Origin: Streptomyces sp. NL15-2K
GTDB taxonomy: Bacteria > Actinomycetota > Actinomycetes > Streptomycetales > Streptomycetaceae
DNA: 64,000 nucleotides
Assembly (NCBI RefSeq): GCF_030551255.1
Contig: NZ_CP130630.1
Span: 8,289,501-8,353,500 of the forward strand
Direction: 5' to 3'
Shown: positions 7,873 through 14,400 of the stretch, one piece after another
How positions within the stretch are numbered: the stretch's first letter is position 1
How the letters are laid out: every line of letters begins with the position of its first letter
The notes under the pieces: model-generated
What the model saw: the letters and a program-made list of their open reading frames with translations, nothing else
Told to the model about the DNA's origin: nothing
Database searches by the model: none
Program-made: the position numbers and the translations under genes

Positions 7873-8085
7873 AGGCCCTGCCGTCAAGCTCCCGCCTGCC
7901 TCGCGGCGTCTGGCACGCACGCTCGCCGCGTTGCCGAACCGCCCACGTGGCTCCTCCCCCACGCTCGAACAACCTCGCGCGGGGGGACCCCCATCGAGGG
8001 CGGCTCCGGCGCCTTGCGATCGCACGCACCAGACGCCGCGAGGCCCGCCCTTCGGGCGGACGACGGGAGCTTGACGGCAGGGCCT
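7873..8085. mobile_element. MITE-like element, type B ends
   Basis: 213 bp with perfect 22-bp terminal inverted repeats (7873-7894 and 8064-8085; left end begins AGGCCCTGCCGTCAAGC). No transposase frame. The interior shares motifs with the type A elements, such as CACGCTCGAACA, GCGCGGG...ACCCCCATCG and GCACGCACCAGAC, although the termini are unrelated. It lies 47 bp upstream of the next gene and probably sits in its promoter or leader. Confidence 0.75.
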
Positions 8086-8132
8086 GCGCGGGGCCGGGGG
8101 AGAAGCGCTCACGGGGAAACAGGGGGAAGTAC

Positions 8133-9398
8133 ATGACCAGCACCACGAGAGGCTCGGCCGTCGCGCTCGGCGCGGCCTTGGCCGTCGCACTCGGGGGCGT
8201 CGCCGCGCTGCCCGCGGCCGCCGCACCGGCGCCGGCGCCGCGCACCGAGAAGGCGAGCGTGGCACCGGACGGGACGGACGGCAACGGCGTCTCCAACGGG
8301 CAGAGCCTGAGCGCGGACGGCCGTTATCTGGCCTTCGTCTCCGACGCCGACAACCTCGTCGCGGGCGACACCAACGGTCTCACCGACGCCTTCGTCCGCG
8401 ACCTGAAGACCGGCACCACCCGCCTGGCGAGCACCGCCGAGGACGGCGGCCCGGGGGACCGCACCGTCCTGGACGTCTCACTGAGTGCCAACGGCCGGTA
8501 TCTGGCGTTCAGCTCCACCCGCACCGACAACACCGACGACACCCATGTCTGGGTCAAGGACCTGAAGACCGGCGCCCTCCAGCGGCTCGACGACGCCGTG
8601 GACAAGGGCTACAGCGCCGCCGGCAGCCCCGCCCTCAGCGCCGACGGCCGCTATGTCGCCTTCATCGCCGGGCGCACCGGCGACGCGCCGTCGGGGGACG
8701 GCTGGAACCGGGTCTACCGCGTCGACCGCAAGACCGGCGAGGCCGTCCGGATCAGCCAGGTACCCGGCGAGGGCGCCTGGAAGGCCGCCGTCACCCGCCC
8801 GTCCATCAGCGCGGACGGCAGCCGGGTCGGCTACCAGTTCTTCGTTCCGCACCCCAGCCGGGGCGACTGGAGCGACGCCTACGTCCGTGACGTGCCGAGC
8901 GGTGAACTGTTCCAGGTCGACAAGGCGCCGGACGGCAAGGTGTCCGACGGGCAGACCGAGTTCCCGCAGGTCAGCGCCGACGGCCGGTACGCGGTCTTCA
9001 ACTCGCTGGACTCGCAGTTGACGCCGGGCGACACCAACGGCTCGCACAACGTCTTCATCCGCGACCTGAAGACGGGGGAACTGCGCCGCATCGACGCCGC
9101 CGACCCGTCCGCCCACACCGCCCACCCGTCGCTCAGCGCCGACGGCCGGCACCTCGCCTTCGTCTCCTCCGACCCGGGCGACCCGAACCACACCACGCGT
9201 GGGTACGTGCGCGATCTGCGGACCGGGCGCACGGTTCTGGCCAACCCCAACACCCAGGGCGGCCCGAGCGCCTCCTCGGTCTGGTTCCCCGTGATCGACC
9301 GGCACGGCCGCACGGTCGCCTTCAGCAGCTGGGCCACCGACCTCGTGCCCGGCGACACCGACGACACCACGCACGTGTACATCCGTCACCTCAGGTGA
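8133..9398 (+). CDS. Secreted TolB-like PD40 beta-propeller protein
   Basis: 421 residues. An N-terminal signal peptide (hydrophobic ALGAALAVALGGVAALPAAAAP) predicts export. The rest consists of about six PD40/TolB-like repeats, each with LSADGRYLAFVS or a variant followed by GDTNG..DAFVRDLKTG; recognisable copies begin near 8308, 8482, 8635, 8806, 8965 and 9130. PD40 propellers usually bind proteins or sugars; no catalytic domain is present. GTGACTCGG-type starts are absent and ATG 8133 follows AGGGGGAAG at good spacing. It is a single gene after a MITE-like element. The specific role is unknown. Confidence 0.85.
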   Translation: MTSTTRGSAVALGAALAVALGGVAALPAAAAPAPAPRTEKASVAPDGTDGNGVSNGQSLSADGRYLAFVSDADNLVAGDTNGLTDAFVRDLKTGTTRLASTAEDGGPGDRTVLDVSLSANGRYLAFSSTRTDNTDDTHVWVKDLKTGALQRLDDAVDKGYSAAGSPALSADGRYVAFIAGRTGDAPSGDGWNRVYRVDRKTGEAVRISQVPGEGAWKAAVTRPSISADGSRVGYQFFVPHPSRGDWSDAYVRDVPSGELFQVDKAPDGKVSDGQTEFPQVSADGRYAVFNSLDSQLTPGDTNGSHNVFIRDLKTGELRRIDAADPSAHTAHPSLSADGRHLAFVSSDPGDPNHTTRGYVRDLRTGRTVLANPNTQGGPSASSVWFPVIDRHGRTVAFSSWATDLVPGDTDDTTHVYIRHLR

Positions 9399-9444
9399 CC
9401 GACCGCATCCTGAGACAATCGTGAGCGAGGCGCGGGGGCTGTGC

Positions 9445-9456
9445 CAGACTGCCTCC
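9445..9456 (+). promoter_or_regulatory. Candidate -10 box giving a leaderless leader-peptide transcript
   Basis: CAGACT at 9445-9450 resembles a -10 hexamer and lies 6 nt before the GTG at 9457. A weak GTGAGC (9421-9426) sits 18 bp upstream in -35 position. Transcription would begin at or next to the leader-peptide start codon, which lacks any Shine-Dalgarno sequence. Confidence 0.4.
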
Positions 9457-9507
9457 GTGCTCTCGTTCGCCACGATTATTGGCAGCAGGCGCGCCGGTCC
9501 GCAGTGA
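9457..9507 (+). CDS. Putative attenuation leader peptide of cimA (MLSFATIIGSRRAGPQ)
   Basis: A 16-codon frame, GTG start and TGA stop, containing two adjacent Ile codons, both ATT (9475-9480). ATT is very rare in high-GC Streptomyces. About 55 nt downstream is a hairpin followed by a U-tract, and then cimA, the first committed enzyme of the citramalate route to isoleucine. Scarcity of charged tRNA-Ile would stall a ribosome on the ATT-ATT pair. No ribosome site is visible, consistent with leaderless initiation. The alternative is a chance frame; the Ile pair, the terminator and the gene function together argue against that. Confidence 0.55.
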   Translation: MLSFATIIGSRRAGPQ

Positions 9508-9561
9508 CCGCCACGTACGACCAGGTACGGGCGGACACCGTCGTCCTCGACCCGCGCGCAG

Positions 9562-9596
9562 ACCTCTCGCACCCGCGAGGGGTTTTTCGCTTTTCT
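9562..9596 (+). terminator. Intrinsic terminator (attenuator) in the cimA leader
   Basis: A 9-bp stem with one G-U pair (9562-9570 with 9575-9583), 4-nt loop, followed directly by TTTTTCGCTTTT. Classical U-tract terminators are uncommon in Streptomyces. This one ends about 100 nt before cimA ATG and lies inside its leader, so it should act in cis as an attenuator. Confidence 0.6.
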
Positions 9597-9698
9597 GGCC
9601 CACCCGCAGCCGGAGGCGAGAGCGCGAGGGACCATGTGGGGACGGTGGAGCCGGTCATTCCGGTAAAGACCGAGATCCGACACAGGAGCCTTCAGACC

Positions 9699-11303
9699 AT
9701 GACCGAAACCAGCGAGCTCGACGATTCGTTCCACGTCTTCGACACCACCCTGCGCGACGGCGCCCAGCGTGAGGGCATCAACCTCACCGTCGCCGACAAG
9801 CTCGCCATCGCGCGGCACCTGGACGAGTTCGGCGTGGGCTTCATCGAGGGCGGCTGGCCCGGCGCCAACCCGCGCGACACCGAGTTCTTCGCCCGCGCCC
9901 AGCAGGAGATCGACTTCCAGCACGCCGAGCTGGTCGCCTTCGGCGCCACGCGCCGGGCGGGCGCGAAAGCGGCTCAGGACCCGCAGGTCAAGGCACTTCT
10001 GGACTCCGGCGCCCCGGTGGTCACCCTGGTGGCGAAGTCCCACGACCGCCACGTCGAGCTCGCCCTGCGCACCACGCTGGACGAGAACCTCGAGATGGTC
10101 CGCGACACGGTGTCCTTCCTGAAGGAGCAGGGCCGCCGCGTCTTCGTCGACTGCGAGCACTTCTTCGACGGCTACCGCGCGAACCCGGAGTACGCCAAGG
10201 CCGTCGTACGGGCCGCGTCCGAGGCGGGCGCCGACGTCGTCATCCTCTGCGACACCAACGGCGGCATGCTCCCCGCCCAGGTCCAGGCGGTCGTCGGCAC
10301 GGTCCTCGCCGACACCGGCGCCCGGCTCGGCATCCACGCCCAGGACGACACGGGCTGCGCGGTGGCCAACACGCTGGCCGCGGTGGACGCGGGCGCCACC
10401 CACGTCCAGTGCACGGCCAACGGCTACGGCGAGCGGGTCGGCAACGCCAACCTGTTCCCGGTGGTGGCGGCCCTGGAACTCAAGTACGGCAAGAAGGTCC
10501 TCCCCGACGGCAAGCTCCGCGAGATGACCCGCATCTCGCACGCGATCGCGGAGGTCGTGAACCTCACCCCCTCCACCCACCAGCCCTACGTCGGCGTCTC
10601 CGCCTTCGCCCACAAGGCCGGCCTGCACGCCTCCGCCATCAAGATCGACCCGGACCTGTACCAGCACATCGACCCCGAACTGGTCGGCAACACCATGCGG
10701 ATGCTGGTCTCCGACATGGCGGGCCGCGCGTCGGTCGAGCTCAAGGGCAAGGAACTCGGCATCGACCTGGGCGGCGACCGCGAACTGGTCGGCCGGGTGG
10801 TCGACCGGGTGAAGGAGCGCGAGCTCAAGGGCTACACATACGAGGCGGCGGACGCCTCCTTCGAACTCCTCCTCCGGGCGGAGGTCGAGGGCAAGCCCCT
10901 GAAGTACTTCCAGGTCGAGTCCTGGCGCGCGATCGTCGAGGACCGCCCCGACGGCACCCACGCCAACGAGGCCACGGTCAAGCTCTGGGCCAAGAGCGAG
11001 CGCATCGTCGCCACGGCCGAGGGCAACGGCCCGGTCAACGCCCTGGACCGGGCGCTGAGGGTGGCGCTGGAGAGGATCTACCCGCAGCTCGCCAAGCTCG
11101 ACCTGGTCGACTACAAGGTCCGCATCCTGGAGGGCGTGCACGGCACCCAGTCCACGACGAGGGTCCTGATCTCCACGTCCGACGGGGCGGGGGAGTGGTC
11201 CACGGTCGGCGTCGCCGAGAACGTCATCGCCGCGTCCTGGCAGGCGCTGGAGGACGCTTACACGTACGGGCTGCTGCGGGCAGGGGTGGAGCCGGCGGAG
11301 TAG
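9699..11303 (+). CDS. cimA: Citramalate synthase
   Basis: 534 residues. Condenses pyruvate with acetyl-CoA to (R)-citramalate, the threonine-independent entry to 2-ketobutyrate and isoleucine; LeuCD and LeuB then act on its products. DRE-TIM metallolyase domain: FDTTLRDGAQREGINL, the metal His pair in GIHAQDDTGCAVANTL, FVDCEHFFDGY, and a CTANGYGERVGNANL loop. The C-terminal 130 residues form a LeuA-type allosteric domain, expected to bind isoleucine. The length and the RDGAQREG variant fit the CimA/LeuA2 branch rather than alpha-isopropylmalate synthase LeuA. ATG 9699 follows ACAGGAG. Transcription is probably controlled by the attenuator at 9457-9596. Confidence 0.88.
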   Translation: MTETSELDDSFHVFDTTLRDGAQREGINLTVADKLAIARHLDEFGVGFIEGGWPGANPRDTEFFARAQQEIDFQHAELVAFGATRRAGAKAAQDPQVKALLDSGAPVVTLVAKSHDRHVELALRTTLDENLEMVRDTVSFLKEQGRRVFVDCEHFFDGYRANPEYAKAVVRAASEAGADVVILCDTNGGMLPAQVQAVVGTVLADTGARLGIHAQDDTGCAVANTLAAVDAGATHVQCTANGYGERVGNANLFPVVAALELKYGKKVLPDGKLREMTRISHAIAEVVNLTPSTHQPYVGVSAFAHKAGLHASAIKIDPDLYQHIDPELVGNTMRMLVSDMAGRASVELKGKELGIDLGGDRELVGRVVDRVKERELKGYTYEAADASFELLLRAEVEGKPLKYFQVESWRAIVEDRPDGTHANEATVKLWAKSERIVATAEGNGPVNALDRALRVALERIYPQLAKLDLVDYKVRILEGVHGTQSTTRVLISTSDGAGEWSTVGVAENVIAASWQALEDAYTYGLLRAGVEPAE

Positions 11304-11404
11304 TCAACCCGACGCCGCACACGTCATCTTGACGGCTTCCGGGACTGCCGGTGGAGTTGTGGGTCCAGCGCAGTGCGATTCCCGAGCCGCCCGGAGGGAC
11401 GTTC

Positions 11405-14400
11405 ATGCGAAGAACCGCCCTGCTCCTCTCCACCGCCTTACTGACCGGCTTACTGCCCCTGGCCTCCGCGGGATCCGCCGCGGGGGCCGGCGTGGCCGAG
11501 GACCCCGCCCCCGTCCCCGTCGACCGCTTCGAGGGCGAGGTCCCCTTCGCCGCCCCGCCCGCCGAAGGCATCTTCACCTGGGGCAGCGACAACGACGACC
11601 CGCCCGCCCTTCAGCTGACCACCCGCGAGGACGCCCCCGAGGGCGACAAGGTCCTCACCGGCACCTACGACATCAGCGGCTACGGCGGCTTCACCCACGG
11701 CTTCGCCTCCGCCGAGCCCGCCCACGACTGGTCCGCCCACCAGGGCATCCGCTTCTGGTGGGACGGCCAGGACAACGGCAAGAAGATCGCCTTCGAGATC
11801 AGGGACGGCGGCGCCAACGGCGAGGCCTCCGAACTGTGGACGACCTCCTTCACCGACGACTTCGCCGGCTGGAAGCAGGTGGAGATCCCCTTCACCGACT
11901 TCACCTACCGCACCGACTACCAGCCCGTCGGCGGCATCGACCAGGTCCTCGGCCTCACCGAGATGTGGGGCTACGCCATTACTCTCCCCGTCGGCGCCAA
12001 GGGCGAGTTCGCCATGGACGGCGTCGAGTTGTACGGCAGGGCCGACCAGTCGCTGCGCGCCTCCGTCACCACCGACGCGGCCGTGTACCCGGTCGAGGAG
12101 GGCGGGACGGCGGCCGTGCGGGTCACCGTCGCCACCACCGGCTCCGCCCCGATCGACGAACCCGTGACCGTCGCCTATGAGACGAGCACGACCGGCACCG
12201 CGGACCCCGGCAAGGATTACACCCCGGTCAGCGGCACCCTCACCTTCCCCGCGGGCACCACATCCGGCACTTCCCGCACGCTTCGCCTCCCCACCCTCCA
12301 GGACAGGTCCGCCGAGTCCGCCGAGACGATCCCGCTGAAGCTCACGGTCACCGGCGCCAAGGCCCCGGCCGAGAACCCCCAGGTCGTCGTCGACGCGCAC
12401 GGACTGCCCTATCTGAACAGCAGGTTGCCGGTGAAGCAGCGCGTCGCCGACCTCCTCTCCCGTATGTCCCTGGCGGAGAAGGCCGGCCAGATGACCCAGG
12501 CCGAGCGCGGCGCCATCACGGCTGCGGGCGACATCGCCGCGTACGACCTCGGTTCGCTGCTGTCCGGCGGGGGTTCCACTCCGACGCCCAACACCCCCGA
12601 AGCCTGGGCCAAGATGATCGACGCCTTCCAACTCCGGGCGCAGGCGACGCGGTTCCAGATCCCGCTGATCTACGGCGTCGACGCGGTGCACGGCCACAAC
12701 AACCTGGTCGGGGCCACGATCACGCCGCACAACATCGGGATCGGGGCGGCCAGGGACCCCCAACTCGCCTACAGGACAGCCGCGGTGACCGCCGCCGAGG
12801 TCCGCGCCACCGGCATCCCCTGGGACTTCGCCCCCTGCCTCTGCGTCACCCGCGACGACCGCTGGGGCCGCGCCTACGAGGCCTTCGGCGAGGACCCGGC
12901 CCTCGTGGACGCCATGGAGACCGTGATCCAGGGCCTGCAAGGCGCCCCGGACGGACGAGACTTGAAGCGCTCCGACAAGGTCCTCGCCACCGCCAAGCAC
13001 TTCGTCGGCGACGGCGGCACCGAGTACGGCTCCTCCACCACCGGCACGTACACCATCGACCAGGGCGTCACCAAGGTCACCCGGCAGCAGCTGGAGGCCG
13101 TCCACCTGGCGCCGTACACCACGGCCGTCGACCGGGGTGTCGGCACGGTCATGCCCTCCTTCTCCTCGCTCGACATCGCGGGCGACGGCCAGGGTCCGGT
13201 GAAGATGCACGCCCGCGCCGACATGATCAACGGCGTGCTGAAGGGCCGTATGGACTTCGACGGCTTCGTCATCAGCGACTGGGCCGCCATCGACCAGCTT
13301 CCCGGCGACTACGCCTCCGACGTCCGTACGTCGGTCAACGCGGGCCTGGACATGATCATGGTCCCGTACGCGTACAAGGACTTCCACGCCGCCCTGGTCG
13401 ACGAGGTCGAGGCCGGCCGGGTCAGTGAGCGGCGGATCGACGACGCCGTCGCGCGCATCCTCACGCAGAAGTTCCGGCTCGGGCTGTTCGAGAAGCCGTA
13501 CGCCGACACCAGCGGTGCCTCCGAGATCGGCTCCGCCGGACACCGGGCCGTCGCCCGGCAGGCGGCCGCCGAGTCGCAGGTGCTGCTGAAGAACGCGGGC
13601 GGTGTGCTGCCGCTGAAGAAGGCGCAGAAGGTCTACGTCGCCGGCTCCAACGCCGACGACATCGGCAACCAGACCGGCGGCTGGACCGTCACCTGGCAGG
13701 GCTCGTCCGGAGACATCACGCCCGGCACGACCATCCTGGAGGGGATGCGGAACGCCGGGGGAGACGTCACCTACTCCAAGGACGCCTCCGCTTCGACCAG
13801 CGGTCACGACGTCGGGGTGGTCGTCGTCGGCGAGACCCCGTACGCCGAGGGCATGGGTGATGTCGGCAACGGTCATGACCTGGAGCTGAGTCCCGCCGAC
13901 AAGACGGCCGTCGACAAGGTGTGCGCCGCCATGAAGTGCGCGGTGCTGATCGTCTCCGGGCGTCCTCAGCTCGTCGGCGACCGGCTCGCGAGCATCGACG
14001 CCCTGGTCGCCTCCTGGCTGCCGGGCACGGAGGGCGACGGTGTGGCCGACGTCCTTTACGGCAGGCGGCCCTTCACCGGGCAGCTCCCCGTGACCTGGCC
14101 GAAGTCCGAGGCGCAGCTGCCGATCAACGTCGGTGACACGGCGTACGACCCGCAGTACCCGTACGGCTGGGGCCTGACGACCCTGACCAAGGCGCCGGAA
14201 GGCGGCCCGGCGACGCTGAAGGCGCTCGGCATCGCGGCAAGAGCGGCGGAGAAGGCCGGCGCCCAGGCGGCGGGTCGCGCGCTTGTCACCAAGGCGCGGC
14301 TGATCGTCCAGCAGAAGGTGGGCCAGTCCATCACGGCAGAGGTCGCGAAGCCCTTCGCCGACGCGGACCATCTGCTGCTGACGGGACGGTACGGAGAGGC

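Follow-up and report, generated by a model that had tools for sequence, protein, structure and literature searches.

Isoleucine-codon leader peptides followed by an end-to-end hairpin and terminator upstream of cimA in Streptomyces and other actinobacteria

The window analyzed here is a stretch of 64,000 nucleotides (64 kb) from Streptomyces sp. NL15-2K, in which a gene on the + strand occupies positions 9699 to 11303. Its product carries the Pfam domains HMGL-like and LeuA_dimer and matches the NCBIfam equivalog TIGR00977 with 642.5 bits (cut-off, 450), which identifies it as citramalate synthase (CimA), as an earlier sequence-only reading of this DNA had claimed. cimA commits carbon to isoleucine through citramalate and, in antibiotic producers, is a source of precursors. 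The upstream gene, encoded on the same strand, ends at 9398, and between the two genes lies a short ORF (9457 to 9507, + strand) with a GTG start at 9457, 16 sense codons, and a TGA stop ending at 9507, predicted to be translated from a leaderless mRNA into the leader peptide MLSFATIIGSRRAGPQ. The putative control codons of this ORF, ATT ATT (Ile-Ile), stand at 9475 to 9480 (+ strand). In 24 coding-like ORFs of the window, which add up to 14,337 codons, 8 of 431 Ile codons are ATT, and the 64 kb contain a single ATTATT on the + strand and none on the other, in agreement with the rarity reported for this codon earlier. An extended −10 box, TGCCAGACT (9442 to 9450, + strand), is the likely leader promoter; its hexamer CAGACT (9445 to 9450) ends 6 nt upstream of the GTG and has TGC directly 5′ of it. 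As a simple sigma-70 scan of 9300 to 9760 found no promoter, this assignment rests on conservation.

The 5′ strand of a helix, P1 (GCGCGC-C-GGTC; 9489 to 9499, + strand), lies within the ORF and pairs in the minimum free energy (MFE) fold (z, −3.1) with a 3′ strand (GACC-C-GCGCGC) at 9549 to 9559 (+ strand). P1 encloses a nested hairpin, P2 (9508 to 9534, + strand), which takes CCGCC/GGCGG and CCACC/GGTGG forms in loci of the same genus, occurs in the same family, and is shorter or missing in compact elements. With 0 nt in between, P1 is followed by a predicted intrinsic terminator (9560 to 9587, + strand), consisting of an 11-bp hairpin, AGACCTCTCGC-ACCC-GCGAGGGGTTT (9560 to 9585), that overlaps the T's of the U-tract at 9583 to 9587. 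Terminator scan, fold, and covariation all point to it; the scan of 9300 to 9760 returned two overlapping sites against 0.1 expected in shuffled sequence, and the 11-bp site was taken as the candidate. The 16-codon frame with ATT-ATT, the −10-like box, and the terminator in the cimA leader thus lie where the sequence-only reading had placed them, and its hairpin and T-tract are present, with a hairpin of 11 bp rather than the 9 bp given. Several other candidates were tried and set aside. A T-box or other known Rfam element was rejected, as no match reached the gathering score in the window at 8000 to 12000 or in ten loci (only miRNA and snoRNA models appeared, far below gathering), and a mobile or phage element was rejected on the basis of 0 exact 32-nt matches in viral_contigs. 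Two alternative pairings, one of the P1 strands with the terminator loop, which both contain ACCCGCG, and one of GGUC with the GACC of the terminator, were judged by eye to be weaker than P1.

Searching with the CimA protein yielded 30 loci, namely that of the window and 29 from the same genus, and the ORF, an Ile codon, and the terminator were present in all 30. A 33-nt pattern with at most 3 mismatches was found in 194 of 246 same-genus genomes, this pattern missing loci that carry a 1-nt deletion described below. A first covariance model, built from 22 of the 30 loci and used for family and order genomes, matched 121 of 121 family genomes (17 of 17 genera) and 118 of 119 order genomes; the only genome missed (G051) has a completeness of 81%, and the cimA search gave it a best match with an E value of 2.5e-5. 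A second model, built from 64 loci and applied to the class at E values up to 0.01 with strict filters, matched 138 of 296 genomes and 62 of 114 genera, a count that includes matches preceding other genes, six or more genomes that lack cimA, and some weak matches that may be due to chance; cimA itself was found in 236 of the 296 genomes and 95 of the 114 genera. Among 35 hand-picked upstream regions from cimA genomes that were negative in this model search, the same layout was present in 17, all of which match the model when searched locally. The other 18 lack the element; among them are every one of the ten regions from family f20 and four from family f27 in which cimA directly follows an ilvE-like gene. 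Outside the class, 3 of 159 phylum-sample genomes matched (nine matches in all), before leuA, before ilvB, and before one gene that is unclear. The sequence-only reading had held that its case would fall if the Ile codons or the hairpin were not conserved in homologous leaders; across these loci the Ile codons, the helix, and the terminator are kept, and the helices covary. As a separate observation, eight element-less cimA leaders of f20 (L222, L223, L225, L226, L248, L258, L259, and L260) share a different conserved stretch, GGCGGYGAACCYGYCNNCGTCGCGCG; no Rfam match was found in five such regions scanned, and an exact copy of the stretch is present once in all 6 f20 genomes searched and in 0 of 3 other genomes.

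The general layout of these elements is a −10 box, 6 to 8 nt, an ATG or GTG, 8 to 23 codons, Ile-Ile(-Ile), a stop codon, P1, and the terminator. An nAnnnT box lies 6 to 8 nt 5′ of the start codon in 127 of 153 leaders and at 4 nt in 2, and it is absent in 24 (14 nt searched). Because the choice of frame in the set used for geometry looks for Ile, start codons were also picked from the spacing to the −10 box alone, blind to Ile, which gave a start in 133 of 145 cimA elements and left 12 without an anchored start. All 133 promoter-anchored cimA leader ORFs contain Ile in frame, 117 of them have two adjacent Ile residues, and the fraction of Ile in the leader stretch next to P1 is 0.51. Of 153 elements, 113 have ATT as the first Ile codon and 40 have ATC. 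ATT-ATG replaces Ile-Ile in 4 of 30 same-genus leaders, which indicates looser conservation of the second Ile than of the first. In 6 of 30 same-genus loci, a 1-nt deletion turns CAGGCGCG into CAGCGCG and changes the frame after Ile-Ile-Gly-Ser, so that the RNA and the Ile codons are retained and the peptide tail is not. In compact elements the stop codon lies 1 to 5 nt before P1, whereas in others, including the element of the window, translation runs through the 5′ strand of P1 to a stop codon within P1. Four loci of the same family (L141, L142, L145, and L147) have TAG right after Ile-Ile-Gly and before P1, a form intermediate between the long and the compact one. Two leaders that our script did not parse (L110 and L164, with ATC just before ATG) have Ile leaders visible by eye, and L131 (the second copy in G211), L257, and L244 (gene unclear) were left out before counting; L131 is a diverged second copy of the core with ATG ACG instead of the Ile codons, and no cimA was found downstream of it.

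Another account of the hairpin would be that it merely terminates the upstream gene and that cimA has its own promoter. The upstream gene does lie on the same strand; yet the hairpin is 160 nt past its end at 9398 and belongs together with the ORF to one conserved unit. Further, among 143 loci the cimA start is 16 to 35 nt 3′ of the end of the element in 25, leaving little room for a separate cimA promoter, and on this spacing we rejected the upstream-gene account, which we regard as extremely unlikely.

Both helices are supported by compensatory change. In the alignment of 64 loci, 7 of 10 P1 pairs show compensatory changes, with 97.7% of cells paired against 92.8% in shuffled and 28 to 57% in slid controls, and in the class-wide alignment A5 (83 of 169 elements), 16 of the 21 pairs in P1 and the terminator show changes in both partners, with 95.7% of cells paired against 83.8% shuffled and 36 to 63% slid; both alignments were fitted to a model of the P1/terminator structure, which favors pairing. 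The base of P1 is nearly invariant, the first two pairs being formed in 83 of 83 rows, and in this structure, folded as far as the U-tract, the Ile codons are unpaired and outside the covarying helices. Spacing is constrained as well in a set of 139 cimA elements, which omits four loci (L097, L099, L101, and L104) with a 3-bp helix round both hairpins in the MFE fold. The first Ile codon is 11 to 15 nt from P1 in 132 of the 139 and 7 to 10 nt in 7, and the linker between P1 and the terminator is 0 nt in 122, 1 nt in 11, and 2 nt in 6. As these alignments and distances show, the Ile codons sit at a fixed distance before P1, P1 lies flush against the terminator, and both helices covary.

The leading edge of a ribosome was taken to lie 13 nt from the A-site codon, and about 14 nt of RNA were taken to be inside RNA polymerase. 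With the ribosome on the first Ile codon and P1 folded, −3 to +3 nt would be left to the terminator in 149 of 153 elements (range, −6 to +3), whereas a ribosome at the stop codon, with P1 open, would leave 6 to 69 nt (median, 22; none below 6; 153 elements). In the stalled state the outer pairs of P1 had a mean of 0.83 and reached 0.5 in 136 of 153 elements. With the last Ile codon in the A site they were mostly masked, reaching 0.5 in only 22 of 153, and the stall would therefore have to be on the first Ile codon.

In textbook attenuation, a ribosome stalled in the leader would allow an antiterminator to capture the 5′ arm of the terminator, and the leader, control codons, and terminator of the cimA element are those of such an attenuator; moreover, the available text of PMC1262725 calls the leuS leaders of Streptomyces classical, with an antiterminator. 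We folded the RNA from the ribosome edge to the terminator loop and asked whether the 5′ arm of the terminator was already paired. Controls behaved as expected of classical attenuators, with arm capture of 0.62 in the stalled state and 0.01 at the stop codon for Escherichia coli trpL, 0.90 and 0.00 for thrL, and 0.81 and 0.17 for the trp leader of the genome from which the window comes. In these folds, by contrast, none of the 139 stalled cimA elements exceeded 0.5 (mean, 0.036), none of 14 related elements before another gene did (the ACT-type elements described below; mean, 0.003), and among eight leu and ilv relatives seven gave 0.0 to 0.1 in the stalled state, one ilvB relative (L243) giving 0.5. 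At the stop codon the arm of cimA elements showed some pairing with upstream sequence (mean, 0.34; 22 of 139 above 0.5), and the element of the window itself gave 0.02 stalled and 0.64 at the stop, the reverse of the classical pattern. Since the same test was positive for the trp and thr controls, an arm-capturing antiterminator for the cimA element seems not to exist as far as these folds can tell, and strand exchange of the textbook kind is unsupported; an exchange that folding programs miss because it is pseudoknotted, long-range, or kinetic is in our view unlikely. The attenuation proposed in the sequence-only reading is supported as to its leader, its Ile codons, and its terminator, all conserved, and lacks support as to the textbook antiterminator, with 0 of 139 in the stalled state. 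Of the features of a classical attenuator, the cimA element has the leader ORF with codons of the pathway and the intrinsic terminator before the gene, and it shows no arm-capturing antiterminator in these folds.

We put the probability that the cimA leader is an Ile-sensing attenuator at roughly 0.9, and it very probably lets actinobacteria turn on cimA when isoleucine is scarce. Taken loosely as a whole, the statement that it senses Ile with P1 gated by the position of the ribosome is likely. How the terminator is controlled is a more delicate matter, and for a mechanism in which P1 and a stalled ribosome together keep it open by proximity, suggested by the geometry, we see slightly less than even odds. 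Under this proximity mechanism, the leaderless mRNA would start at 9457 and be translated at once. When Ile-tRNA is sufficient, the ribosome would reach the stop codon and cover the 5′ strand of P1, leaving at least 6 nt of loose RNA before the terminator, which would close and turn cimA off. When Ile-tRNA is low, the ribosome would wait on the first Ile codon, P1 would fold against its leading edge, and the folded P1 would take up the loose RNA and draw the ribosome and RNA polymerase together, so that the terminator would be blocked and cimA would be on. With no ribosome, P1 and the terminator would be compatible and transcription would stop, leaving cimA off. The base of the terminator is inside the polymerase at the moment of action, and therefore of the two ribosome-bound states only that at the stop codon would let the terminator close. 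The end-to-end layout would also explain why neither the sequence-only reading nor folding programs find an antiterminator. In keeping with it, in modeling summarized in the available text of a review (PMC10953045), a collided ribosome-polymerase pair cannot respond to termination hairpins.

Several findings speak against the proximity mechanism. The two states are separated only by an assumed steric limit derived from the ribosome and polymerase footprints given above, and the energy model closes the terminator in both (probability, 0.98 stalled and 0.97 at the stop); the absence of P1 at the stop codon is a matter of geometry and not fold output. The partial pairing of the arm at the stop codon runs opposite to the classical pattern, and the masking of the outer P1 pairs with the last Ile codon in the A site also counts against it. 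Against the explanation as a whole, part of the class lacks the element (18 of the 35 upstream regions above). A different reading gives P1 the active role, either by hindering the terminator directly from its flush position or as a pause hairpin that holds the polymerase for the ribosome, which would only open or free P1. The linker of 0 to 2 nt in 139 of 139 elements and the formation of P1 ahead of terminator synthesis fit this; however, it predicts readthrough without any translation, and P1 coexists with the terminator in the folds, and we consider it rather unlikely.

Relatives of the element with the same P1-terminator layout precede other genes. Gene identity was established via NCBIfam for one representative per gene (L207, L210, and L196) and by visible sequence for the rest. 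Leu-Leu-Leu leader codons occur in three relatives before leuA (L207, L209, and L242) and two before leuS (L210 and L216), and Ile, Val, and Leu codons occur in three before ilvB (L201, L208, and L243), a further ilvB relative (L196) not being parsed; the leuS, leuA, and ilvB relatives share a common register of 14/11/8 nt from the control codons to P1. A pattern search for a leuS leader in the genome of the window found nothing. By codon content, the leader is tied to its pathway, with Ile for cimA, Leu for leuA and leuS, and Ile, Val, and Leu for ilvB. This bears on the possibility that a protein or some other factor binds the RNA, as has been suggested for the leuA LEU element, and that the ORF is not decisive. 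The nearly invariant base of P1, with its first two pairs in 83 of 83 rows, would suit such a site. So would the ilvB leader of Streptomyces coelicolor, where codon mutations were without effect on regulation, as cited in the available text of PMC1262725, a result that is at odds with codon-based attenuation. On the other side, the codons change with the pathway of the downstream gene over five gene types, exchange between ATT (113 of 153) and ATC (40 of 153) preserves Ile, and no Rfam family was found at gathering score (8000 to 12000 of the window; ten loci). We judge factor binding to be very unlikely. More tentatively than for the mechanism at cimA itself, we suggest that the relatives form a class-wide family of attenuators without an antiterminator, in which the ribosome edge, P1, and the terminator are placed end to end and a collided expressome is built in, with Ile, Leu, or Ile-Val-Leu as the signal.

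The cimA element resembles attenuators of the trp/his/thr type (E. coli; trp of Corynebacterium and Streptomyces) in its short ORF with codons of the pathway, its intrinsic terminator, and its switch by ribosome position. It differs from the trp/thr type in that the controls capture the arm at 0.62 to 0.90, as against 0 of 139 in cimA, where P1 and the terminator are neighbors and not alternatives. In pyrBI/pyrE attenuation of E. coli, a ribosome near the polymerase prevents the terminator, as in our proposal; there, UTP and polymerase pausing provide the signal and the ribosome gets as far as the terminator, whereas in the cimA proposal the ribosome would stall upstream and a hairpin would bridge the gap. 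Leaderless branched-chain leader peptides followed by a terminator have been described for ilvB and leuS of actinobacteria (PMC1262725; Streptomyces lividans TK24, PMC8079986), although the available text of these papers does not give cimA among the genes or describe a P1 flush against the terminator. As far as that text goes, PMC1262725 (Seliverstov 2005) describes leaders of trp, cys, ilvB, leuA, leuS, and ileS and reports that other amino acid pathways have no conserved structures upstream, and the eight leader peptides that PMC8079986 gives for S. lividans do not include one at cimA. The LEU element of leuA (PMC1262725, same proviso) likewise has a leader peptide with pathway codons within a conserved structured leader, but it forms a pseudoknot in whose base stem the Leu codons are paired with the Shine-Dalgarno sequence of leuA, whereas the cimA element has a terminator and its Ile codons lie outside the covarying helices. 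A cimA leader was not found in the main text of PMC4895711, PMC8780764, PMC6742748, PMC4681348, or PMC8914203, and the literature search, which covered the main text of openly accessible papers, returned no published description of one.

Conserved in many actinobacterial genera, an Ile leader would be the main transcriptional feedback on cimA. Its layout lends itself to asking whether a hairpin alone is enough for an upstream stalled ribosome to block a terminator, and it suggests a reason why antiterminators could not be found in branched-chain leaders of actinobacteria. If the proposal is true, the same end-to-end layout serves Ile (cimA and an ACT-like protein), Leu (leuA and leuS), and Ile/Val/Leu (ilvB). 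Fourteen elements with Ile leaders belong to a gene other than cimA, and in 13 loci (L106, L107, L108, L111, L112, L114, L116, L118, L119, L121, L122, L203, and L205) such a second copy of the element precedes the ACT-like protein, which has 75 to 114 amino acids; L123 was counted among these 14 ACT-type elements with its gene not assigned. The proteins match ACT or acetolactate synthase small-subunit models below the curated cut-offs, and a database search with one of them returned 41 relatives, mostly named hypothetical and some ACT domain-containing. Standing behind the same leader, this small protein is a new candidate for the isoleucine pathway and is probably an unrecognized regulatory subunit of it.

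A further conserved feature lies upstream of the leader promoter. In the window, a GAGAC box at 9412 to 9416 (+ strand) is 45 nt 5′ of the leader start. All 30 same-genus elements have GAGA[CT] 26 to 62 nt 5′ of the start, as do 49 of 54 family and order elements and 18 of 69 class elements, against 14 of 152 in a control window further upstream. The distance was 44 to 46 nt in 83 of the 97 boxes found, and the box may perhaps be an operator or an activator site.
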